Shown here: piece by piece, positions 6,490 through 63,719 of the stretch
Position numbering within the stretch: position 1 is the first letter of the stretch
Layout of the letters: the number at the start of each line of letters is the position of its first letter
Assembly (NCBI RefSeq): GCF_036250065.1
Contig: NZ_CP109199.1
Coordinates: forward strand, 1,612,001-1,676,000
Source of the DNA: Micromonospora sp. NBC_01699
GTDB taxonomy: Bacteria; Actinomycetota; Actinomycetes; Mycobacteriales; Micromonosporaceae
DNA length: 64,000 nucleotides
Reading direction: 5' to 3'
Translations under genes and position numbers: made by a program
Notes under the pieces: model-generated
The model's database searches: none
What the model was told of the DNA's origin: nothing
The model's input: only the letters and a program-made list of their open reading frames with translations

Positions 6490-9333
6490 ATGCTGGTGCT
6501 GCTGAGCCTCCACCTCGCGCTGGCGCTGATCGCGCCACTGCTCGTCCGTTGGTGGGGTCGCCGCGCCTGCTACCCGCTGGCGCTCGCCCCGGCGGCCATC
6601 TTCGCCTGGGCGGTCGCCCAGACCGGTACGGTCCGCGCCGGCGGCCAGGTGGCCGAGACGTACGGCTGGGTCCCGCAGGTGCACCTCGACCTGGCGTTCC
6701 GGGTCACCACGCTGTCCTGGCTGATGGCGCTGCTGGTCGGCGGGGTCGGCGCCCTGGTGCTGGTCTACTGCGCCCACTACTTCGCCGCCGACGACCCCGG
6801 CCTCGGCCGCTTCGCCGCCACCTTCGTCGGCTTCGCCGGGGCCATGTTCGGCCTCGTCGTCGCCGACAACCTGATCCTGCTCTACGTGTTCTGGGAACTG
6901 ACCACGGTCTGCTCCTACCTGCTGATCGGCCAGAACCCGGAGAAGTGGGCCAGCCGGCGGGCCGCCGCCCAGGCTCTCGTCGTCACCACCGTCGGCGGGC
7001 TGGCCATGCTGATCGGCCTGATCATGCTCGGCCAGCGGGCCGGGACGTACCGGATCTCCGAACTGGCGACCGCGCCGCTGCCCACCGACGGCTACCTCGC
7101 CACGCTGGTCGTGCTGCTCCTGGTCGGCGCGGTCACCAAGTCGGCGATCTTCCCGGTCAGCTTCTGGCTGCCCGCCGCGATGGCCGCCCCCACCCCGGTC
7201 AGCGCGTACCTGCACGCGGCGGCGATGGTGAAGGCCGGGGTCTACCTGGTCGCACTGTTCGCCCCGCTGTTCGCCGACGACCAGCCGTGGCGGCCACTGC
7301 TCCTCGTCGCCGGGGCGGTCACCATGCTGCTCGGCGGCTGGGCCGCACTGCGCCAGACCGACCTGAAGCTGCTGCTGGCGTACGGCACGGTCAGCCAACT
7401 GGGGCTGCTGTTCGTACTCACCGGCGCCGGCACCCGTGACGCCGAACTCGCCGGCCTCACCATGCTGCTCGCCCACGCCCTGTTCAAGTCCGCGCTCTTC
7501 CTCGTCGTCGGCATCGTCGACCACAGCGCCGGCACCCGTGAACTGCCCGCGCTGTCCGGGCTGTGGCGGCGGATGCCCCTGGTCTTCGCCGCCGCCGTAC
7601 TCGCCGTGGCGTCCATGGCCGGGCTGCCGCCACTGCTCGGCTTCGTAGCCAAGGAAGCGGTGTTCGAGGCGTTCCGGCACGACCCGCTGCTGCTCACCAT
7701 TCTGGTCGTCGGCTCCACCCTGACCGTGGCGTACAGCCTGCGCTTCCTCTGGGGGGCGTTCGGCACCAAACCGGCCCTGCCGGCGACACCGACCGAGCCG
7801 GTGGCGGTCGCCATGCTCGCCCCGGTCGGCCTGCTGGCGGTGGCCGGGCTGGCGCTCGGCGTACTGGCCCGGCCGGTGGACGACCTGCTGGTCCCGTACG
7901 CCGGGCAGTTCGGACCGGGTGGGTATCACCTGGCGCTCTGGCACGGGCCCGGCCTGGCGGTCGGGCTGTCCCTGGTCGCGCTGGCCGGCGGCGGACTGCT
8001 GTTCGCCCAACGCGACCGGATGGCCCGCGTGGTCGAGCGGCTGCGCGCCCCGTTCGACGGCGGGACCGCCTACGAACGGGTGACCTACTGGCTGGACCGG
8101 GCGGCGGTCGAGGTCACCGGCGCCACCCAGCGCGGATCGCTGCCGCAGTACCTGGGCACCATCCTGGTGGTCCTGGTGGTGGTGCCGGGCGGCGCGCTGC
8201 TGGTCGGCTGGCCCTGGCCGGACCGGGTCGCGCTCTGGCACAACCCGGTGCAACTGGTGGTCGCGGTGGTGCTCGCCACCGCCGCGGTGCTCACCGTACG
8301 GGCCCGTCGCCGGCTCACCGCGATGGTGCTGGTCGGGGTCACCGGCTACGGCACGGCGATGATGTTCGTCCTCAACGGCGCACCCGACCTGGCGCTCACC
8401 CAGTTTCTCGTCGAGACCGTCTCGATCGTGATGTTCGTGCTGGTCCTGCGTCGGTTGCCGGCCAACTTCTCGGCCCGCCCACTGCGTCGCAGCCGGTGGT
8501 TGCGGCTCGCCATCGGCACCGCCGTCGGGGTGGTCGTGGCCGGGCTCGCGCTCGCCGCCGCCGGTGGCCGGCAGGCGGTGCCGATCTCGGTCGACTTCGC
8601 CGAACTCGCCGTCTCGTACGGCCACGGCCGCAACATCGTCAACGTCACGCTGGTCGACATCCGGGCCTGGGACACCATGGGCGAGATCGCGGTGCTGGTG
8701 GTGGCGGCGACCGGGGTGGCCAGCCTGATCTTCCAGCGCCCCCGGGCCGGTCCCGGCCCCCGTCGGCCGAACGTCGGTCGCCGGAGCCGGCCGGAACGCC
8801 GCCGGGAACGGGTCTGGCTGCGGGCCGGACCGACCCTGCGCGACCGGCGCCGTTCGATCGTCTTCGAGGTGGTCACCCGGCTGATCTTCCACACCATCGT
8901 GCTGTTCTCCCTGTACCTGGTCTTCTCCGGACACAACGCACCCGGCGGCGGGTTCAGTGGCGGGCTGGTGGCCGGGCTGGCGCTGGCCGTGCGCTACCTC
9001 GCCGGTGGCCGGTACGAGCTGGACGAGGCGGCCCCGGTCGACGCCGGGCTGGTGCTGGGCGCCGGACTGTTCGTGTCGGTCGGCGCCGGCGCGCTGGCCC
9101 TGCTGGCCGGGGCGGAGGTGTTGCAGAGCGGCGTACTCGACGTGGATCTGCCGGTGATCGGCGAGGTGCACCTGGTCACGTCGATCTTCTTCGACGTCGG
9201 GGTGTACCTGATCGTGGTCGGTTTGGTGCTGGACATCCTGCGCAGCCTCGGCGCCGAGGTGGACCGGCAGATCGAGGCCGGCGAGGGACCCGAGATCGAA
9301 CTCGAACCGTTGCGAGAGCGGGAACTGACATGA
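6490..9333 (+). CDS. mrpA: Na+/H+ antiporter subunit A with fused subunit B (MrpAB)
   Basis: A 947-residue integral membrane protein opening a six-gene Mrp (Mnh) operon, the multisubunit secondary Na+/H+ antiporter related to complex I. The N-terminal 480 residues resemble NuoL/MrpA, with conserved VFWELTTVCSYLLIG and KSAIFPVSFWLPAAM segments. Residues 600-660 match the MbhD/DUF4040 part (LNGAPDLALTQFLVETVS). Residues about 790-930 are an MrpB domain with GHNAPGGGFSGG. Fusion of B to A explains why no separate mrpB follows. GGAG precedes the ATG. The stop overlaps the ATG of a 10-codon mini-ORF. Confidence 0.95.
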   Translation: MLVLLSLHLALALIAPLLVRWWGRRACYPLALAPAAIFAWAVAQTGTVRAGGQVAETYGWVPQVHLDLAFRVTTLSWLMALLVGGVGALVLVYCAHYFAADDPGLGRFAATFVGFAGAMFGLVVADNLILLYVFWELTTVCSYLLIGQNPEKWASRRAAAQALVVTTVGGLAMLIGLIMLGQRAGTYRISELATAPLPTDGYLATLVVLLLVGAVTKSAIFPVSFWLPAAMAAPTPVSAYLHAAAMVKAGVYLVALFAPLFADDQPWRPLLLVAGAVTMLLGGWAALRQTDLKLLLAYGTVSQLGLLFVLTGAGTRDAELAGLTMLLAHALFKSALFLVVGIVDHSAGTRELPALSGLWRRMPLVFAAAVLAVASMAGLPPLLGFVAKEAVFEAFRHDPLLLTILVVGSTLTVAYSLRFLWGAFGTKPALPATPTEPVAVAMLAPVGLLAVAGLALGVLARPVDDLLVPYAGQFGPGGYHLALWHGPGLAVGLSLVALAGGGLLFAQRDRMARVVERLRAPFDGGTAYERVTYWLDRAAVEVTGATQRGSLPQYLGTILVVLVVVPGGALLVGWPWPDRVALWHNPVQLVVAVVLATAAVLTVRARRRLTAMVLVGVTGYGTAMMFVLNGAPDLALTQFLVETVSIVMFVLVLRRLPANFSARPLRRSRWLRLAIGTAVGVVVAGLALAAAGGRQAVPISVDFAELAVSYGHGRNIVNVTLVDIRAWDTMGEIAVLVVAATGVASLIFQRPRAGPGPRRPNVGRRSRPERRRERVWLRAGPTLRDRRRSIVFEVVTRLIFHTIVLFSLYLVFSGHNAPGGGFSGGLVAGLALAVRYLAGGRYELDEAAPVDAGLVLGAGLFVSVGAGALALLAGAEVLQSGVLDVDLPVIGEVHLVTSIFFDVGVYLIVVGLVLDILRSLGAEVDRQIEAGEGPEIELEPLRERELT

Positions 9334-48858: not shown

Positions 48859-48973
48859 GACGAAAGCTGGAGTCGGCGTACGTGCCGACGCGCGTTCAGT
48901 GGGGTGGCTCCAGTTCCGGACCGGGGCCACCCCTTTCACGTGTGGTGCACCCCTTCAGCAGGGGCCCGACCAT

Positions 48974-49050
48974 CGACGATCTTGCACTTGTGGCGCCCGG
49001 ATTAGGGCCCTCATCCGGATTTGTTCACCACCACAAGTGCAAGATCGTCG
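48974..49050. repeat. 20-bp perfect palindrome (family A)
   Basis: CGACGATCTTGCACTTGTGG (48974-48993) pairs with its exact complement at 49031-49050. The loop contains CCGGAT/ATCCGG around AGGGCCCT. The whole element is nearly identical to 56043-56117 and shares arms with 16454-16523. Unlike the others it lies between codirectional genes. Confidence 0.9.
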
Positions 49051-49134
49051 CGCCGTTTGGTGTGCGGCGGGTGGGAGTGGGTCGGGGCGGTTTACGGCGG
49101 GTGGGGGTGGGCGGGTTCCTGCGATCATCGGGGC

Positions 49135-55979: not shown

Positions 55980-56042
55980 CCGCCCCGCGCCGGAGCCGCC
56001 AAACATGCCGGCCACCCAACGGTGACCGGCACCGATCTCGTC

Positions 56043-56117
56043 GACGATCTTGCACTTGTGGCGCCCGGATTAGGGCCTTCATCCGGATTTGTTCGCCACC
56101 ACAACTGCAAGATCGTC
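56043..56117. terminator. 19-bp palindrome between convergent genes (family A)
   Basis: GACGATCTTGCACTTGTGG (56043-56061) pairs with 56099-56117 except for one C-C mismatch. The interior differs from the 48974 copy at only two positions. It lies between the lipoprotein gene and ideR and is followed by a G-run. Confidence 0.9.
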
Positions 56118-56160
56118 ACGTCGTCTGGTGTGCGGGGGGGGGAAGGGGGTGGGGGGGTGT

Positions 56161-56847
56161 TCAGGAAGCGGCGACGAAGACTCGCGAGGCCACCTCGCGC
56201 GGCAGCCGGATCTTGTCACCGGAGCGGTCGATGGTGACGCCGTCGCGCTCCTGCGCCACGGTCACCGTGGCGCCCGGGTCGACCCCGGCGGCGTGGAGCT
56301 GACGCAGGACGTCACCGTCGGTCTGCACGCTCTCGCAGATGCGCCGGACCACGACCGGGCCGGTCAGACCGGGGAAGGCGAGGTTGCGTTCCGCGTCCGG
56401 GCTCTCCACGGCGGACGACTCCAGGGCGCTGCCGAGCGCCTCCAGCCCCGGAATCGGATTGCCGTACGGCGATCGGGTGGGCCGGTTCAGCAGGTCGTAG
56501 ACCTTCTGCTCGACCGCGTCGCTCATCACGTGCTCCCAGCGGCAGGCCTCCTCGTGGGCCTCCTCGTAGGGCATGCCGATGACGTTGACCAGGAGCAGTT
56601 CGGCGAGTCGGTGCTTGCGCATGACGGCGATCGCGAGGCCCCGGCCGGACGCGGTGAGCCGCAGGTGCCGGTCGTCCTCCAGGGTCAGCAGCCCGTCGCG
56701 TTCCATCCGGGCCACGGTCTGGCTCACGGTCGGCCCGCTCTGGTGCAGCCGCTCGGCGATCCGCGCACGCAGGGCCGGCACACCCTCTTCTTCGAGTTCG
56801 AGAATGGTGCGCAGGTACATCTCAGTCGTATCGACCAGATCGTTCAC
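56161..56847 (-). CDS. ideR: iron-dependent repressor IdeR (DtxR family)
   Basis: 228 residues from GTG 56847, matching the conserved start (M/V)NDLVDTTEMYLRTI; an ATG at 56871 is also open. HTH RIAERLHQSGPTVSQTVARMERDGL, metal-binding region HRLAELLLVNVIG and CRWEHVMSD, then the C-terminal SH3-like domain (GVDPGATVTV). Fe2+-dependent repressor of siderophore and iron genes. In related genomes the next divergent genes are sseA and acuC; here a 5.7-kb island intervenes. Confidence 0.95.
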   Translation of the reverse strand: MNDLVDTTEMYLRTILELEEEGVPALRARIAERLHQSGPTVSQTVARMERDGLLTLEDDRHLRLTASGRGLAIAVMRKHRLAELLLVNVIGMPYEEAHEEACRWEHVMSDAVEQKVYDLLNRPTRSPYGNPIPGLEALGSALESSAVESPDAERNLAFPGLTGPVVVRRICESVQTDGDVLRQLHAAGVDPGATVTVAQERDGVTIDRSGDKIRLPREVASRVFVAAS

Positions 56848-57087
56848 GTCAGCCGCCCTCCCGGTGGTCAATGCTACCCCGAGTCACCGACACGGAGCCG
56901 CAGCCCGAACGGGGCGTCTCGCGCTGGTACCCACCACACGTGATGGTGTTGACCGGGTGTCGTGCCCGCCACAGATGATCTTCTGGTTGACGTAGCCACC
57001 CTCGCCGGAAACTAGCCGACCCGGAGCCGGCTGCCACGGCCGTACCAACGGTACTGGATGTGCACCGGCGGCTCGCCGGCCCACCCG
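56841..57087. repeat. left flanking direct repeat of the island
   Basis: About 247 bp that reappears, roughly 85% identical with small indels, at 62745-62979 in the same orientation. It contains the ideR start codon, the ideR/sseA promoter gap and the first 125 bp of an sseA copy. Confidence 0.88.
56962..57087 (+). pseudogene. 5' fragment of sseA
   Basis: From GTG 56962 the sequence parallels the start of the intact gene at 62862 (ATDDLLVDVATLAG in both). It then loses one base and hits TAG at 57013, and similarity stops at 57087, where the island begins. No catalytic part remains. Confidence 0.85.
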
Positions 57088-57163
57088 GTCGGGCCGAGCG
57101 CGCCGGAAGGCCCGCCCCGAGACTGTCGACCACGGGGGAAGACGACATCCTCGGGGCGGGCGG

Positions 57164-57442
57164 TCAGATGGATCGTTTGATCTGTCGGAGGGGTGGGCCG
57201 TCGATCCAGTTCAGGAATCGTGCGTCGGCGATGGGGCGGGACATGCCGCCGCCGAGGGCGCTGTCGCGGAAGCTGGTCATGATCAGGTGTAGTCGGTGGC
57301 GGTCCTGTGGGCGTGGGTACCAGGACCACATGCGGCGGATGTAGATCGGGCACGGCCATTCCTGGCCGTCGTCGGTGCAGTACCAGTCTTCGTTGGGTCG
57401 GTGTAGGGCGCCCTGGCCTTCGGGTGGCTGGTCGTACTCCAT
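57164..57442 (-). CDS. hypothetical protein of the island
   Basis: 92 residues; ATG 57442 behind GGAGGTGA. Soluble, Trp-rich, with EDWYCTDDGQEWPCPIYIRR (two Cys) and SRPIADARFLNWIDGPP. I believe such proteins recur in actinomycete accessory DNA, but I cannot name a family or function. Last gene of the minus-strand series of small genes. Confidence 0.65.
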   Translation of the reverse strand: MEYDQPPEGQGALHRPNEDWYCTDDGQEWPCPIYIRRMWSWYPRPQDRHRLHLIMTSFRDSALGGGMSRPIADARFLNWIDGPPLRQIKRSI

Positions 57443-57713
57443 GGTTTGTCACCTCCGGCTGGGTCTTGTCTCGTGGATCCTGTCGTCGGGGGGTTGGTAG
57501 GCCGTCTTCCAGGCTTTGTGCTGTCCGGGCAGGTCACGCGGGGGTAGATCGGTGCATCTCAGCCCATAAATCGCCCTGGTGCACCGCCGTCGTTTTCTTG
57601 CTGTTTGCTGCTCACGTTGCGAAGAGCTTGGCCGGTTCTGGCGAGCCGAACTTTCCGGGATCATGGGAGCCGCCATGCAACGCCCCCGACCATCGCGATC
57701 CGGGGGACGGAAC
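57443..57713. other. gap between two island genes
   Basis: 270 bp with lower GC than the chromosome around it. A 75-codon minus-strand frame (57449-57676) is open but has no ribosome site and atypical codon use. No other feature seen. Confidence 0.3.
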
Positions 57714-57950
57714 CTAGATCAGGTGTACTCGTTCGAGGGACCCGTCGGGATTCCGCAGGGTGAGGCTTCCGTTCCCGTGGTCGATCAGGTCGAGTACCAG
57801 GTTGTAGGCGACCAGGGCCCGGTTGATCGTGTCGGTCTTCGTGTCCCGTGTGCGGGCGCGCGCCGAGGCGAGTGCGTCGACCGCGCGCGGCGCCAGGTTG
57901 ACCGTGATCTTCGTCAGCGTCGATCGGTCCGGCTCAGGGCCGGTGGTCAT
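57714..57950 (-). CDS. ribbon-helix-helix-like small DNA-binding protein
   Basis: 78 residues. STLTKITVNLAPRAVDALASARARTRDTKTD... has the strand-helix-helix pattern of RHH proteins (KITVNL strand; then DTINRALVAYNLVLDLI helix). The tail NGSLTLRNPDGSLERVHLI is shared with the remnant at 29508-29591. Its ATG overlaps the end of the XRE-TPR gene (ATGA, 57950-57947). It may be an antitoxin-like or regulatory partner; no toxin gene is adjacent. Confidence 0.7.
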   Translation of the reverse strand: MTTGPEPDRSTLTKITVNLAPRAVDALASARARTRDTKTDTINRALVAYNLVLDLIDHGNGSLTLRNPDGSLERVHLI

Positions 57951-59175
57951 ACGCTCACGCCCATGTGCTGGGCCAGGTCGGCGATCGGCGGGGGTGGTGT
58001 GCCGGAGGTGCGGCGGAGGATGTCGGACATGACCTCGTGGGCGATCGGCCGGCAGCGGATCTCCGAGGGGGCGAGTCGGTCGCCGTCGACCAGCATCTCG
58101 CCGGCGTTGTGTACGTCGCCGATCTGGGCGTAGCCCCTGGCGATGTCGAGCAGGTGGTTGGCTCTCCGTTCGGGTGGCAGGGCGGCGAATTTGCGCTTGT
58201 CGATCCGCTGTTCGTGGGTGTCCACCGCCTTTCGGCCCTCGCCCAGTTCGACCGCTGCGGCTGCCCGGTGTACTTCGAGGTTGGTGGGGCCGAAGCTGGT
58301 CCAGTAGTGGTTCTGGTCCGAGCCGAGGGCGGTGGCGGGCTCGTGGGCTGCTCGGGTCAGGTCTCGTACGGTGGCGCTGTCGCCGAGTCGGGCGGCGGCC
58401 ATCGCGGCTTGGAGTAGCAGCGTTCCGTAGAAGGAGAGCCGGTCCGGGGCGGCGTCGTTGGTGTCGCCCGGTGCGAGCCGGTTGGCGATGTTGATGTTGA
58501 CTTCCAGTGCGGAGCGGGCTCGGCCGAGGGCGAGTAGGGCGTTGCCGACCCGGTAGGTGGCGGCTCCGACGAGTAAGGGGTCGTCGGCGCGTACGGAGAC
58601 GGTCATCGAGCGGTCGGCGGCGAGCCGGGCCAGGTCGTACTCACCGAGTTTGCACAGGGCCGAGGAGGCGATCGGTAGACCTGTCCGAGCAGGTTCGCGG
58701 CGAGTTGTCCATCGTCGCCGGTGTGATAGGCGTCGGCCGCCTGGGCGTCGCGCAGCAGCTTCGGTAGCGCCCTGGTCAGCACCGTGTAGCGGGCGTACTG
58801 GTAGGTCAGCCAGGCGTGGTTGACCGCCTTGCGGAACTCGGTCAGGACGGGTGTCATGATCTGTGCGTCGAGGTATCTGCTTACCCCCACGTATCGCTCC
58901 AGGGCGGCCCGGATCTCCTCGACTTCCACCTCATCGAGGTGGCTCGCCGTGTCGGTACGCCGTTGCGGGTCTTTGCCGCGCAGTAGCTGCACGTCGATGG
59001 TGAGCACGTCGGCGATCTCGTAGAGGACGGAGAACTTGTCCAGCCGTCGCACTCCGCGTTCGATCTTGTCGACCCAGCTTTTGGACTTGCCGAGCCGGTC
59101 GGCGAAGATCTGCTGGGACAGCTTCCGTCGACCGCGCCAGTACGCGACGCGGCGCCCGATCGGTAGTTCATCCAC
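57947..59175 (-). pseudogene. XRE-TPR regulator gene with a frameshift
   Basis: The 5' frame from ATG 59175 encodes an XRE helix-turn-helix (QQIFADRLGKSKSWVDKIE) and helices up to about NLLGQVYR. The frame then shifts near 58672: one missing base restores IASSALCKLGEYDLARLAAD and the TPR-like C-terminal half to 57947. As written, the first frame ends at 58603 with an unrelated Pro-rich tail. The second half could be translated alone from 58606. A sequencing error or a programmed shift is not excluded. The intact relative is at 61533. Confidence 0.75.
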
Positions 59176-59350
59176 CCGCGATCACCGCCAGGCTCCGGTG
59201 GGCCCAGTCCAACTGCGGGCACCCGTCCGGGGTGCACTGCCGGCAGGTGCCCGTCTGCCACGGGTACCGGCCCGGCTGGTGTTGCCGCCGGGTCAGATCG
59301 GCCGCTTCCCAGATCGCCGCTTTCGTCAGCGGCTCGTCCTGTCGGCTCAT
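59168..59350 (-). CDS. small Cys protein 1 of the island
   Basis: 60 residues. Contains GTCRQCTPDGCPQLDWA, a CxxC-x4-C motif that may bind metal, in the same arrangement as its neighbour (CLHCTQYGCP). ATG 59350 overlaps the upstream stop as ATGA; its end overlaps the XRE-TPR start. The tight coupling suggests the two Cys proteins and the regulator work together. Function unknown. Confidence 0.65.
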   Translation of the reverse strand: MSRQDEPLTKAAIWEAADLTRRQHQPGRYPWQTGTCRQCTPDGCPQLDWAHRSLAVIAGG

Positions 59351-59556
59351 GACTCTCCATCCCCGGCACCGTCCTGCGCCTGAATCCGTGTGCCCCGTGC
59401 GAGCGCCTGTAGGAACTCGATCGCGCGATCCATGTACGGGCATCCGTACTGGGTGCAGTGGAGGCAGACCGGTCGCCAGAGGCGGGATCGTCGGTGTCTG
59501 GTGATCTCCTCGCGAGCGATCCACTTCAACGTGTCGAGGCTCAGTTCCCCACTCAT
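59347..59556 (-). CDS. small Cys protein 2 of the island
   Basis: 69 residues. Motif CLHCTQYGCPYMDRAIEFL parallels the Cys motif of the next gene, so the two are probably ancient duplicates. N-terminal part SLDTLKWIAREEITRHRRSR is basic and helical. Three bases separate it from the preceding small gene. Confidence 0.65.
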   Translation of the reverse strand: MSGELSLDTLKWIAREEITRHRRSRLWRPVCLHCTQYGCPYMDRAIEFLQALARGTRIQAQDGAGDGES

Positions 59557-59559
59557 CGG

Positions 59560-59757
59560 TCACGCCGTGGGGGCGCGCCGGATGCGTCCGGACATCCCGA
59601 TCGAGAACAGCTCCGTCGGAAGGGCCTCTTGATTCTTGTCGTACCGGCCCTCGTTGGGCATGCGCCGCCGTGTACCGGGAGCCGGCGGCATGTCGGCCAC
59701 CCCCTGGCCGGGGACCGGGGACTCGGGAGTGATCGCGTTGCTTTGTTCGTCGTGCAC
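59560..59757 (-). CDS. small hypothetical protein, first gene of the island's minus-strand operon
   Basis: 65 residues from GTG 59757, preceded by AGGAGGAG at good spacing. Low complexity and likely disordered: Pro/Met/Arg-rich with PGQGVADMPPAPGTRR and a final GMSGRIRRAPTA. No signal peptide. A peptide-precursor role could be imagined, but no modifying enzyme is nearby, so I make no such claim. Confidence 0.55.
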   Translation of the reverse strand: MHDEQSNAITPESPVPGQGVADMPPAPGTRRRMPNEGRYDKNQEALPTELFSIGMSGRIRRAPTA

Positions 59758-59787
59758 AGTGCTCCTCCTTCAACTCGAACGTTGGAA

Positions 59788-59822
59788 GCGGGGTCGCTCC
59801 GATGGGGACGGAACGACCCCGC
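59788..59822. promoter_or_regulatory. hairpin in the divergent control region of the island
   Basis: GCGGGGTCG (59788-59796) pairs with CGACCCCGC (59814-59822). It lies 30-65 bp upstream of the minus-strand operon start, within the 240-bp divergent region shared with the XRE-DUF5753 gene. It could be an operator or attenuator; no -10/-35 pair was certain. Confidence 0.4.
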
Positions 59823-59999
59823 GCAGTTCCGCCCGTCTTTCGGGGAACGAGATTCGTAGATTCGAGCGGTTCTGCTAGGTGACACTCTGCTGTCGGAACC
59901 CCTACTCTCGGAACACATAAGTCCACTTCGGGGAGTGTGCGCACTCGGACCTGGGCAGCAAAGCGCCGATCTCTAATTTGAGGAAAGGTTGGGGAACAC

Positions 60000-60800
60000 G
60001 TGGGAATCTCAGCTTCGGAGTACATGATTCGCGATCTGAAGCGGAAACGGCTAAAGGCAGGGTTGACCCAGGCCCAGCTCGGGGAGCTGATCCACTATTC
60101 CGATACTCAGGTCAGCGCCATGGAGACGGGTGGCAAGCCCGTAACTCTGGCGTACCTGAAGCTGGTCGACCAGGCGCTTAACCTCGGCGACCACTTCGAG
60201 GTGATGTGGGAGGAACTGGTCAAGGACGCTGACGCGCCGGTCTGGCTGCGGGAGTGGCTTGCGATTGAGCGCGAGGCGAGGGTGCTGCGCTGGTACGAGC
60301 ACGCCTTCGTCCCTGGGCTGTTGCAGACGGAGGCATACATGCGGGCGATCTTCTCGGCATCCCATCGGCTGCCGGCCAACGAGGTGGAGCAGCAGGTTGC
60401 CTCCCGGTTGGAGCGCCAGACCATCCTGACTATGGATGACCCGCCGGAGCTGTTCGTCGTGATCGACGCCATGGTGATCAAGCGCATGGCCGGCTCCGGC
60501 CAGGTCATGGTCGAACAGGTGGAGCATCTGCTGGCCTGTGCGGACAACCCCAAGATTCACTTGCAGGTCATCCCCATGTCGCTCGGGATGTACTCGGGGC
60601 TCGCCGGGGCATTCATCCTGGCCGACCTGCCGGAGGCTCACAAGGTTGGCTACGTTGACAACCAGCTAACCGCGCAGATCGTTGAGCGCGCGGAAGACAT
60701 TGCTAGCCTCGGAGTGTCGTGGGATGCAGTCCGAGACGAGGCGCTGCCACGCAGCCAGACCGTAGAACTTCTGAAGGAAGCGGCGAAATCATGGACATGA
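60000..60800 (+). CDS. XRE-family regulator with DUF5753 domain
   Basis: 266 residues, GTG start with GGGGAA upstream. HTH at residues 10-65 (AGLTQAQLGELIHYSDTQVSAME), then DUF5753 (WYEHAFVPGLLQTEAYMRA, LACADNPKIHLQVIPMSLGMYSGLAGAF). This is the WhiJ-like regulator class of actinomycetes that pairs with a DUF397 protein encoded just downstream. GC content is visibly lower than in the flanking chromosome. It overlaps the DUF397 start by about 10 bp. Confidence 0.93.
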   Translation: MGISASEYMIRDLKRKRLKAGLTQAQLGELIHYSDTQVSAMETGGKPVTLAYLKLVDQALNLGDHFEVMWEELVKDADAPVWLREWLAIEREARVLRWYEHAFVPGLLQTEAYMRAIFSASHRLPANEVEQQVASRLERQTILTMDDPPELFVVIDAMVIKRMAGSGQVMVEQVEHLLACADNPKIHLQVIPMSLGMYSGLAGAFILADLPEAHKVGYVDNQLTAQIVERAEDIASLGVSWDAVRDEALPRSQTVELLKEAAKSWT

Positions 60801-60979
60801 CCGGCGCCCAGTGGCGTAAGTCGACCCGCTCGTCCACCAACGGTGGGGCGTGCGTGGAGGTATCCGACAACCTGCCCGGCCGCGTGCTCGTTCGGGACAC
60901 CAAGGACCGCGACGGCGGCACCCTGGCCTTCGAGCCGGCGGCGTGGAGCGCGTTCGTCGGCTTCGCTCGCCAGCCCTAG
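60791..60979 (+). CDS. DUF397 protein 1
   Basis: 62 residues: MTGAQWRKSTRSSTNGGACV, LVRDTKDRDGGTLAFEP, AAWSAFVGFARQ, the full DUF397 pattern. Partner of the upstream XRE-DUF5753 protein in WhiJ-type systems. ATG 60791 fits the usual MD(x)TGAxWRKS start; a second ATG at 60797 forms ATGA with the upstream stop. Confidence 0.9.
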   Translation: MDMTGAQWRKSTRSSTNGGACVEVSDNLPGRVLVRDTKDRDGGTLAFEPAAWSAFVGFARQP

Positions 60980-60988
60980 CCGGCACAG

Positions 60989-61030
60989 AAAAGGCCCTGG
61001 CCTGCCCTCATCGGGTGGCCAGGGCCTTTT
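60989..61030 (+). terminator. terminator of the first XRE-DUF397 unit
   Basis: AAAAGGCCCTGGCC (60989-61002) pairs with GGCCAGGGCCTTTT (61017-61030), followed by more T. A classic intrinsic terminator. Confidence 0.93.
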
Positions 61031-61125
61031 TCATGAGTACCTGAGCCCTGGGACAGTCCGTTGACCATCGCGACCTCGGACCGGCGGAACGTGGCGTTCA
61101 TGGATGGACTGCTGGGCGGGCAGGT

Positions 61126-61244
61126 GACCAAGGGTCCAGATGGGTCGTTGCCCTTGAGGAGGTCTGGGAAGTTGTCCGTGAGTACGCTCTACCCGGACAG
61201 TCGTCCTTGGAACTCCTATGGAAACGGCGGAGTCCTGGAGCTGA
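61126..61244 (+). pseudogene. decayed C-terminus of a second XRE-DUF5753 gene
   Basis: The frame from 61156 reads VWEVVREYALPGQSSLELL. After a one-base shift near 61217 it continues METAESWS-stop (TGA 61242-61244). The intact gene at 60000 ends SWDAVRDEALPRSQTVELLKEAAKSWT-like, matching in order and spacing. The first three quarters of the gene are gone. Confidence 0.75.
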
Positions 61245-61249
61245 ACGAT

Positions 61250-61426
61250 GTGCCGCGCTGGCGGAAGTCCAGCCGAAGCAACGGACAAGGCGGCGCCTGT
61301 GTAGAGGTGGCCGACAACCTGCCCGGACGTGTGCTCGTCCGGGACACCAAGGATCGCGACGGCGGCACCCTGGCCTTCGAGTCGGCGGCGTGGAGCGCGT
61401 TCGTCGGCTTCGCTCGCCAGTCCTAG
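61250..61426 (+). CDS. DUF397 protein 2
   Basis: 58 residues from GTG 61250 (GGAG 9 nt upstream): RWRKSSRSNGQGGACVEVAD, LVRDTKDRDGGTLAFES, AAWSAFVGFARQS. Nearly identical to DUF397 protein 1 in its last 45 residues. Its own XRE partner is the decayed fragment just upstream, so it may now be an orphan or work with the intact XRE protein. Confidence 0.85.
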   Translation: MPRWRKSSRSNGQGGACVEVADNLPGRVLVRDTKDRDGGTLAFESAAWSAFVGFARQS

Positions 61427-61436
61427 CCGGCACAAG

Positions 61437-61477
61437 AAAGGCCCTGGCCTGCCCTCATCGGGTGGCCAGGGCCTTTT
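61437..61477 (+). terminator. terminator of the second DUF397 unit
   Basis: AAAGGCCCTGGCC pairs with GGCCAGGGCCTTT; nearly identical in sequence to the terminator at 60989-61030, including the loop. Confidence 0.92.
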
Positions 61478-61532
61478 ACCCGGACCATTGGCCGTACCGT
61501 AGGTAGCAGGGCACCCCTCGACGGAGGGCTAC

Positions 61533-62735
61533 ATGGCGCGCAGGGCTACACGAGACACTGCCATCGGTCAGCGCATCCGCGACCGCCGTACGCTGCTGAA
61601 ACTCACACTCCGCGTCGCCGCCGATCGGGCCGGCATCAGCCACACCACCCTCTCGCGCATCGAACGTGGCGAGATCAGCGCCGACAACCGCTTCACCCTG
61701 GCGGACATCGCCGAGGCATTGCGCTGTCCCGTCACAGACCTGACCGGGCTACCCGCCGCGCCCGCCGACCGGGACCAGGCCGAGGCCGGCGGCGCCGTCC
61801 ACGAGGCGCTGCAAGCCGTCATCGGCGCCGATCTGGACTATCCGCCCGACTCCGAACCGGTCGCGCTCGATGCCCTGGGCCGGGAGCTGGAGTTGGTCCG
61901 GGGGCTGCGGATCAGGTGCGACTACATCGCTGCGGCGAACAGGATCCCGAATCTGATCCGGGGGTTGCACGCCGCCGCGTACGGCCAGGAACGGGAGCGT
62001 GCCCTGCGTGGTCTCGTCATCGCCGAGGACATGACATCGTTCGTGATCCGCTATGCCGGTCACCCCGGCTCGGCTTGCCTGGTCGCCGACCGCGCGCACC
62101 AGGCGGCCGAACGGCTCGATGATCCGGTGATGCTCGGCCTCGCGGCTTGGTCGCGGGGGCACGCGGCAACCGGCATGGGTCTGTATCCACGGGCGCTACA
62201 GGTGGCGCAACGAGCTGCGACCGAACTCCAGCCGCACACCGGCGAGCCGGACGCGCTGGAGATGTTCGGGCAACTGCTGATGTTGCAGGCGTTTGCGATC
62301 TACGCCCAGGGTCGCGACCTGGCCGACACGACCGAACTGGTTGCCGAGGCGGTGCGGATTGCCGAGCAGACCGGCGAGAGCGGGGCCCTGAACCTGGCCT
62401 TCGGGCCGACAAACATCCGGTTCTGGAAGGTCAGCATGCTCTCAGACGGTGACCCAGGCGCGGCCGTCGAGATCGCACGCGAGACTCAGCCGGCGGCGGT
62501 CGAGTCCCCGTCCCGGCAGTTCGCGTTCTACGCGGATACCGGCCGCGCGCTGGCGCACCTGCGCCGCGACCGGGAGGCCCTGCGGATGTTGCTGACCGCC
62601 GAGCGGTTGAGTCCTCAGCGGATGCGCTCGCCGATCATCACGGAGACAGTGCGGGGCCTGCTGGAGCGGTCGAAGCGAGGCACCGGCTGGACCGAGCTTC
62701 GCGGCCTCTGCGAACGGCTCGGCATCGGGGCGTAG
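61533..62735 (+). CDS. XRE-family regulator with TPR-like C-terminal domain
   Basis: 400 residues, ATG behind GGAGGG. HTH in residues 10-70 (LRVAADRAGISHTTLSRIERG), followed by about ten TPR-like helices (GLYPRALQVAQRAATELQP; NLAFGPTNIRFWKVSMLSDG). It has the same architecture and the FGPTN motif of the frameshifted gene at 57947-59175. TPR-bearing XRE proteins in actinomycetes often respond to peptides or antibiotic-pathway signals; the ligand here is unknown. Confidence 0.88.
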   Translation: MARRATRDTAIGQRIRDRRTLLKLTLRVAADRAGISHTTLSRIERGEISADNRFTLADIAEALRCPVTDLTGLPAAPADRDQAEAGGAVHEALQAVIGADLDYPPDSEPVALDALGRELELVRGLRIRCDYIAAANRIPNLIRGLHAAAYGQERERALRGLVIAEDMTSFVIRYAGHPGSACLVADRAHQAAERLDDPVMLGLAAWSRGHAATGMGLYPRALQVAQRAATELQPHTGEPDALEMFGQLLMLQAFAIYAQGRDLADTTELVAEAVRIAEQTGESGALNLAFGPTNIRFWKVSMLSDGDPGAAVEIARETQPAAVESPSRQFAFYADTGRALAHLRRDREALRMLLTAERLSPQRMRSPIITETVRGLLERSKRGTGWTELRGLCERLGIGA

Positions 62736-62744
62736 ACGACAGAC

Positions 62745-62979
62745 CGTTCACGTCAGCCGCCCTCCGGTGGGCCAATCCTCCAGTCACCGACCCGGAGCCG
62801 TAGCCGAACGGGGGTGTTGCGCAGTGGTGCCGATCGAACGCGATGGTGTTGACTGAGCGTCATGTCCGCCACAGACGATCTACTGGTCGACGTAGCCACC
62901 CTCGCCGGGGAACTGGCCGACCCTGAGCCGGCCGCACCAACCGTACTGGATGTTCGCTGGCGGCTCGCCGGCCCACCCG
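62745..62979. repeat. right flanking direct repeat of the island
   Basis: Counterpart of 56841-57087, same orientation. It begins with a vestige of the ideR start (CGTTCAC...CCGCCCTCC, the GTG and its ribosome site on the minus strand), followed by the promoter gap and the start of the intact sseA. Confidence 0.88.
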
Positions 62980-63719
62980 CGCGGGAGGACTACGCCGCCG
63001 GGCACCTGCCCGGAGCGGTTTTTGTCGATCTCGACGCCGAGCTGTGCGGTGCCCCCGGCCCCGAGGGGCGGCATCCGCTGCCCGACCCGGCCGCGCTCCA
63101 GCGGGTCCTGCGCGCCGCCGGGGTGCGTACCGGTCACCCGGTGGTGGTCTACGACGGCGGCGACGGTCTGCCCGCCGCCCGCGCCTGGTGGACCCTGCGC
63201 TGGGCCGGACACGAATCCGTCCGGGTGCTCGACGGCGGATTCGCGGCCTGGGTCAGCGCCGGGCAGCCGGTCACCGCCGAGGTGCCGACCCCACCGCCGG
63301 GGGACGTCACCGTCGTACCCGGTGGTCTGCCGGTGCTCGACGCCGACGCGGCGGCCGAACTCGCCGCCGGAGCCGGCGTGCTGTTCGACGTCCGGGCCGC
63401 GCCGCGCTACCGGGGCGAGACCGAGCCGGTCGACCCGGTCGCCGGGCACGTACCCGGCGCGGTCAATCTGCCGACCACCGAGCACATCGCCCCGGACGGC
63501 AGGCTGCGGGCCGCCGCCACCCTCCGGTCGCGGTTCGCACAGGCCGGCGTCGAGCCCGGCGTACGCGTCGGCGCGTACTGCGGGTCCGGGGTGACCGCCG
63601 CGCACACGGTGTTCGCCCTGCACCTCGCCGGGCACCCCGACGCCGCCCTCTACGTCGGCTCGTGGAGCCAGTGGGTGACCGACCCGGACCGCCCGGTGGC
63701 CACCGGCGCCGGCACCTGA
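62862..63719 (+). CDS. sseA: thiosulfate/3-mercaptopyruvate sulfurtransferase
   Basis: 285 residues, two rhodanese domains. The N-terminal inactive domain ends with VLDGGFAAWVSAG; the C-terminal domain has the active loop CGSGVTA with catalytic Cys near residue 240. It transfers sulfur from 3-mercaptopyruvate or thiosulfate. ATG 62862. Stands between ideR and acuC in related actinobacteria, so this is the functional copy of the ancestral gene or its incoming homologue. Confidence 0.94.
   Translation: MSATDDLLVDVATLAGELADPEPAAPTVLDVRWRLAGPPAREDYAAGHLPGAVFVDLDAELCGAPGPEGRHPLPDPAALQRVLRAAGVRTGHPVVVYDGGDGLPAARAWWTLRWAGHESVRVLDGGFAAWVSAGQPVTAEVPTPPPGDVTVVPGGLPVLDADAAAELAAGAGVLFDVRAAPRYRGETEPVDPVAGHVPGAVNLPTTEHIAPDGRLRAAATLRSRFAQAGVEPGVRVGAYCGSGVTAAHTVFALHLAGHPDAALYVGSWSQWVTDPDRPVATGAGT

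Follow-up and report, generated by a model that had tools for sequence, protein, structure and literature searches.

The DNA analysed here is a 64-kb window (positions 1612001–1676000) of the single-contig, 8.28-Mb genome of Micromonospora sp. NBC_01699 (G000), in which an island of regulatory genes lies between ideR and sseA. All coordinates below are those of the window unless a chromosomal position is given. The ideR gene (56161–56847, minus strand), encoding a DtxR/IdeR-type regulator, is intact, and its protein shows 97% identity to the homologs of the two congeners compared (G001 and G002), which represent the genus together with the source genome. The gene name and the choice of a GTG at 56847 as the probable start are our assumptions, based on what is known of IdeR; in the list of open reading frames (ORFs), the frame reaches a TTG at 56871. 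On the other side of the island lies an intact gene (62862–63719, plus strand) that we take to be the sulfurtransferase gene sseA, a label carried over from a preliminary description made from the sequence alone; its protein shows 88% and 83% identity to those of G002 and G001, respectively. The named relatives among the best 80 of its 132 matches belong to Micromonosporaceae and other actinobacteria.

Two direct repeats flank the island, as the preliminary description had noticed. The left junction copy (56836–57093) and the right junction copy (62740–62985) align with 79.7% identity over 261 columns (E 1e-57); the earlier estimate of roughly 85% was too high, and the ungapped pieces reach 80–85%. 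The repeat, about 260 bp long, comprises the ideR start, the intergenic region and the first ~44 codons of sseA, and 5.6 kb lies between the two copies. In the left copy, which adjoins the intact ideR, the sseA start (56962–57015, plus strand) is broken: a single-base deletion near 57006 is accompanied by an in-frame TAG (57013–57015) after 17 codons. The right copy has a decayed ideR half, retaining just the first few ideR bases (about three codons if the GTG at 56847 is the start), and an intact sseA half. Both arrangements agree with what had been described before. At the left edge, similarity is gone by ~57107 and the repeat passes into a terminator-like hairpin belonging to the first cargo gene (gene A), while the right repeat begins at most five bases from the stop codon of the last one (TPR2). 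Inspection by eye revealed only a few bases of similarity at the joints, and the joints are old.

The arrangement of the two genes in other genomes identifies the island as an insertion. Among 119 loci examined for ideR and sseA (L005–L123, with some genomes counted twice, e.g., L006/L015 and L007/L016), 82 hold both genes, and the start-to-start gap is 49–363 bp in 80 of these, the remaining two being Salinispora loci with gaps of 3.2 and 7.2 kb. In both G001 and G002, the genes are divergent and adjacent with starts ~110 bp apart, i.e., the sites are empty, and the island was seen between them in the source genome alone. Since ideR and sseA are adjacent in 80 of the 82 loci, including both congeners, the two genes were neighbours ancestrally and the island has been inserted between them. 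This supports the earlier claim of an insertion between neighbours. Pfam and NCBIfam searches of the 10 translated island ORFs yielded neither an integrase nor a transposase domain (for gene E, the comparison was with PADLOC and PHROGs alone), in line with the earlier statement that the island has neither gene. In addition, no tRNA was found in the congener junction regions (L015 and L016), and none of the 20 reported inverted-repeat pairs joins both island ends. The two Salinispora loci carry independent inserts with beta-lactamase-like and LysR-like genes (L071, 7.2 kb; L078, 3.2 kb; named by eye from translations). A role of the ideR-sseA junction as a hot spot for the cassette was considered and rejected: these inserts carry other genes, their flanking repeats do not exceed 23–40 bp (best E 0.007), and their sole match to a cassette gene is a chance-level match of 29 residues between gene E and the sseA of L078.

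The island carries two facing groups of genes. Its left edge is a GC-rich, terminator-like inverted repeat (57108–57160, minus strand) 3' of gene A, which also occurs in L191, L192, L193 and L202 according to an alignment of left ends. On the minus strand follow gene A (57164–57442, 92 amino acids, no Pfam match), gene B (57714–57950, 78 amino acids), a frameshifted XRE-type regulator gene (TPR1, 57947–59175), genes C (59168–59350, 60 amino acids) and D (59347–59556, 69 amino acids), both encoding small Cys-rich proteins, and gene E (59560–59757, 65 amino acids). An extra 256 bp (57459–57714) between A and B is absent from L191, L192, L193 and L194; within it, a dispersed repeat of ~50 bp (57620–57669) has similar sites in G000 and G002 (77–85%). 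The C and D products (59168–59556) have a common motif by eye, CxxCTxxGCP, which suggests that they may be related small metal-binding proteins. On the plus strand, a WhiJ/Scr1-like XRE-DUF5753 regulator gene (60000–60800; PF19054, E 1.2e-51; PF01381, E 1.7e-8) is followed by a gene for a BldB-like DUF397 protein (60794–60979; PF04149, E 4.8e-21 when translated from 60791) with a hairpin-forming repeat directly 3' of it (60989–61029). A second DUF397 copy (61241–61426, within the ORF 61061–61426; PF04149, E 1.1e-20) is accompanied by a duplicated hairpin (61437–61477), and the segment 61289–61477 is 92% identical to 60842–61030. The last gene, TPR2 (61533–62735), encodes a full-length XRE-type regulator of 400 amino acids that shows 68% end-to-end protein identity to the product of a G002 gene situated near B and C homologs. 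A reading of the island as a defence system was discarded, as the PADLOC matches are weak and mostly limited to the helix-turn-helix part.

The layout of genes A–E facing an XRE-DUF5753/DUF397 pair is not confined to this island, and relatives of it occur at no fewer than 14 other sites in the same genome (L191–L204), a count that is a lower bound since the best 40 candidates per genome were scored. At a protein-match threshold of E 1e-6, A, B and D were found at all 14 sites, C at 13, the XRE gene at 12 and E at seven; A, B and C were also matched at another fetched locus (L216), and further XRE/DUF397 matches exist elsewhere in the genome. The D region had no DNA match in G001 or G002 among the best 40 candidates per genome. 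DNA identity to other copies reaches 94% for gene A (nearest copy L193), 94% for gene B (L194; 80–94% across the 14 copies) and 95% for gene D (L203), and the nearest copy of gene E is L191 (86%), while those of the XRE gene are L157 of G002 (79%) and L192 (78%). Genes other than B are more variable in their identities, and gene A or the XRE gene often matches other copies only as protein. As the nearest copy differs from gene to gene, the island is a mosaic. Taken together, the island is one of ~15 related cassettes of a family that has multiplied in this lineage.

We then compared the two junction copies with the single junctions of the congeners. Identity to G002 is 88.0% both for the flank upstream of the island and for the sequence that starts at 62745 and runs through the right repeat and sseA into the DNA beyond. 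On the ideR side of the repeat, 15 private substitutions are right-only and none is left-only; on the sseA side, six are right-only and nine left-only. This complementary pattern gives a Fisher p of 0.0007 with a dividing line that was placed after the alignment had been seen, and the count for the right copy may be inflated by a 4-bp gap and a shifted stretch. Within the sseA coding part, the left copy has eight private changes, of which three, two and three fall on codon positions 1, 2 and 3, respectively. In quartet analyses by maximum likelihood, a sister relationship of the left and right copies was favoured by 7.2 and 7.7 log units over the alternatives, for which the approximately unbiased (AU) test gave p values of 0.083 and 0.046; the trees thus weakly favour left and right as sisters. 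The species order ((own,G002),G001) was taken from the tree of a TPR1 homolog (98 by IQ-TREE and 0.931 by FastTree). Because of the complementary substitutions, the quartet preference and the equal flanks, the divergence may best be read as decay of the half that each copy no longer needs, a foreign half being less likely. As to which copy is native, both appear to be, each in part.

This TPR1 homolog is a resident gene of the same chromosome, near 6.157 Mb (G000:C1:6156893-6158122); it is intact, 86.6% identical to the TPR1 of the island, and has close full-length matches in many genomes of the family. The two genes are sisters with high support (100 by IQ-TREE and 0.997 by FastTree). A simple gene-conversion mosaic was rejected for TPR1, the shared sites being dispersed along the gene.

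The insertion sites of the other cassettes provide a further comparison. Flanks were looked up in the congeners for nine of the 14 (twelve of twenty 200-base pieces). Two of the nine have inserted at sites that are short in G002 (L199) or in both congeners (L201), and no repeat of the target is visible at either; the L201 insertion (7.3 kb) exceeds the cassette in size. Six (L191, L193, L194, L195, L196 and L202) have surroundings too different from the congeners to call. At the ninth, L197, ~115 bp from the 3' end of a gene (by eye, a topoisomerase-like one), present once each in G002 and G001, recurs 5.3 kb on, the second piece lying ~230 bp 3' of the DUF397 gene of the cassette; the best tree again joins the left and right copies, not significantly (AU p 0.11 for both alternatives). 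Self-comparison of the 14 loci revealed a long flanking repeat of the target type nowhere except at L197. We also scanned for direct repeats of at least 100 bp and at least 75% identity at a spacing of 2–12 kb. The window contains two such pairs, the junction pair and a dispersed 115-bp repeat. Among 26 other loci of the same genome (469 kb, mostly picked for holding cassettes and not a random sample), L192 (an array resembling clustered regularly interspaced short palindromic repeats, CRISPR), L195 (a dispersed repeat) and L197 have one pair each and 23 have none; among 25 congener loci (441 kb), one has a pair. The view that the cassette generally duplicates its target was rejected: among 17 cassette-like loci, a repeat of at least 100 bp occurs only in L197 and L192 (the latter from its CRISPR-like arrays), and shorter ones of 17–67 bp (best E 4e-6), which are dispersed repeats, occur elsewhere, e.g., in L195, L205 and L206.

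We consider the best explanation of the island to be a lineage-specific cassette insertion that duplicated its target and was followed by complementary decay, with a probability of about 0.6. In this scenario, the cassette would have entered the ~110-bp shared promoter region of ideR and sseA after the split from the sequenced congeners, and the entry event would have duplicated ~260 bp of the target; the island would be composed of the basic cassette with three additions, namely a second DUF397 gene, TPR2 and a copy of the resident regulator (TPR1). Each junction copy would then have decayed in the half that no longer served a gene, which is the ideR half in the right copy and the sseA start in the left one. 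With a complete upstream region left to each, neither ideR nor sseA would have lost its promoter, and both promoters are presumably still functional. Both junction copies probably come from this lineage. The most speculative element is how the target was duplicated. A one-step insertion through break repair (a staggered break) or template switching would need the fewest steps, and a Ku gene scores above the curated cut-off in G000, G001 and G002; a single crossover with a circle or fragment of a close relative would come next, and of the three routes, a diverged donor has the weakest support. Several observations weigh against the explanation as a whole. The quartet tests are indecisive, with an AU p of 0.083 for the tree that a more distant donor should produce, and a 9-bp indel in sseA groups left with G002 and right with G001 rather than left with right. 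TPR1 has 114 private changes versus 17 in its resident sister, and 63 versus 8 (~8-fold) at third positions, an excess that fits simple in-place decay poorly and could reflect time spent in another strain. An alignable target duplication is present in only two of the 15 cassettes, this island included, and is not regular; at L197, the inserted region also holds 1.8 kb absent from G002 after the right copy, as well as insertion-sequence-like remnants (by eye). Finally, no bacterial precedent for a staggered-break duplication of 260 bp was met among the titles and abstract openings covered by a limited literature search.

The main competitors share the geometry of a Campbell integrant. The preliminary description had proposed that another strain's diverged ideR-sseA junction arrived on a circle or fragment through a single crossover of the Campbell type, which would make each repeat a native/foreign hybrid. 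The geometry is compatible with this proposal, no recombinase was found in the island, and a switch from native to foreign within the repeat would also yield the complementary substitution pattern; the indel common to the left copy and G002 and the long TPR1 branch point the same way. The evidence leans away, however, from a diverged foreign copy: the best tree pairs left with right, the left sseA changes are spread over all codon positions and accompanied by both a frameshift and a stop codon, as decay would produce, sseA and its downstream sequence are no more distant from G002 than the upstream flank is, and the TPR1 of the island is sister to a gene of its own chromosome. We regard a diverged donor as unlikely, although a donor closer to the source strain than G002 is possible. 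Somewhat more probable, yet still well short of the favoured explanation, is the same geometry with a donor of this or a very closely related lineage, through a conspecific Campbell event or homology-facilitated illegitimate recombination, with copies that were near-identical at first and decayed later. The evidence for a shared lineage and for decay fits this equally well, homology-facilitated illegitimate recombination has been described in bacteria (PMC3240628), and L197 provides a second target-derived repeat; but an earlier molecule in which the cassette and an ideR-sseA junction were already joined would be required, and the flanks of the 14 other cassettes have no match to this junction. 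That the repeats are unrelated promoters, which the preliminary description had named as a possible refutation, or similar by chance, has a negligible probability given their alignment statistics, and both copies align lengthwise to a single congener junction. A broader idea, that the cassette is a self-spreading unit which lacks a transposase or integrase, uses homology or break repair to enter new sites, exchanges parts among its copies, gains resident genes such as TPR1 and sometimes duplicates 100–260 bp of target, seems to us unlikely.

Judged by its gene families, the cassette may be classed as a regulator locus. As in the whiJ-bldB loci of Streptomyces, its XRE-DUF5753 gene is directly followed by a DUF397 gene and many paralogs exist per genome; unlike them, the pair neighbours the divergent small-gene operon A–E. 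Some, not all, of the Streptomyces whiJ-bldB paralogs have iosA or abaA alongside (available parts of PMC10294661), whereas no HATPase of the abaA type was found in the 10 scanned island ORFs, a scan that left out gene E. According to the portions available, Streptomyces XRE-DUF397 pairs affect antibiotic production and development, and overexpressed DUF397 proteins showed no clear toxicity (PMC10364602, PMC10294661). The same portions of PMC10294661 make no mention of an insertion that duplicated its target. For S. pratensis, the part of PMC4239341 consulted describes fifteen DUF397-HTH gene pairs (bldB/hpb) per genome that have duplicated and proliferated in the past; those pairs diverge in sequence among strains of one species, whereas the island is an entire cassette that one member of the genus has and its congeners lack. 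Multi-copy XRE-DUF397 loci are already known, while the A–E partner operon, its spread in the lineage and duplicated-target insertions were not met in the partial literature covered.

With regard to mechanism, the island resembles Campbell integrants and merodiploids in that its insert is flanked left and right by a target segment (PMC3784515, as available in part); no sign of either a diverged donor copy or a circle was seen. One homologous and one illegitimate joint, as in homology-facilitated illegitimate recombination (PMC3240628, in the part available), could yield its structure, which we only infer here. It also differs from integrase-type integrative elements, with no integrase domain in the 10 ORFs and no tRNA in the congener regions, and from transposons with target duplication, having neither a transposase domain in these ORFs nor an inverted-repeat pair across its ends. 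XRE-DUF397 loci form a large regulator family about which little is understood, and actinobacteria differ widely in how many copies they have. A genome with ~15 cassettes, some of their sites empty in congeners and two beside a duplicated target, offers a concrete place to study how such regulators spread, and the ideR-sseA case illustrates a way in which the interruption of a divergent promoter region used by two genes might be tolerated, with one copy left to each of them.

Some minor observations concern the surroundings of the cassettes. The cassette of L192 (G000:C1:7342000-7361000) lies between two CRISPR-like repeat stretches. A dispersed repeat of ~120–165 bp occurs in either orientation near the edges of the L199, L200, L194, L195 and L197 cassettes. 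The idea that L199 and L200 carry each other's flank was dropped, as the 146 bp that they have in common belong to a dispersed repeat which also lies near further cassettes. At the left end of the L199 cassette, a tRNA-His predicted by ARAGORN (9226–9311 of that locus) overlaps gene A from the other strand, probably by chance. The other dispersed repeat, ~115 bp long and of inverted-repeat character, is present in the window at 56027–56155 and 48973–49087 and in six other fetched loci of the same genome (71–92%); the site 56031–56161 is ~100 bp shorter in G002, so this copy looks like a small insertion.

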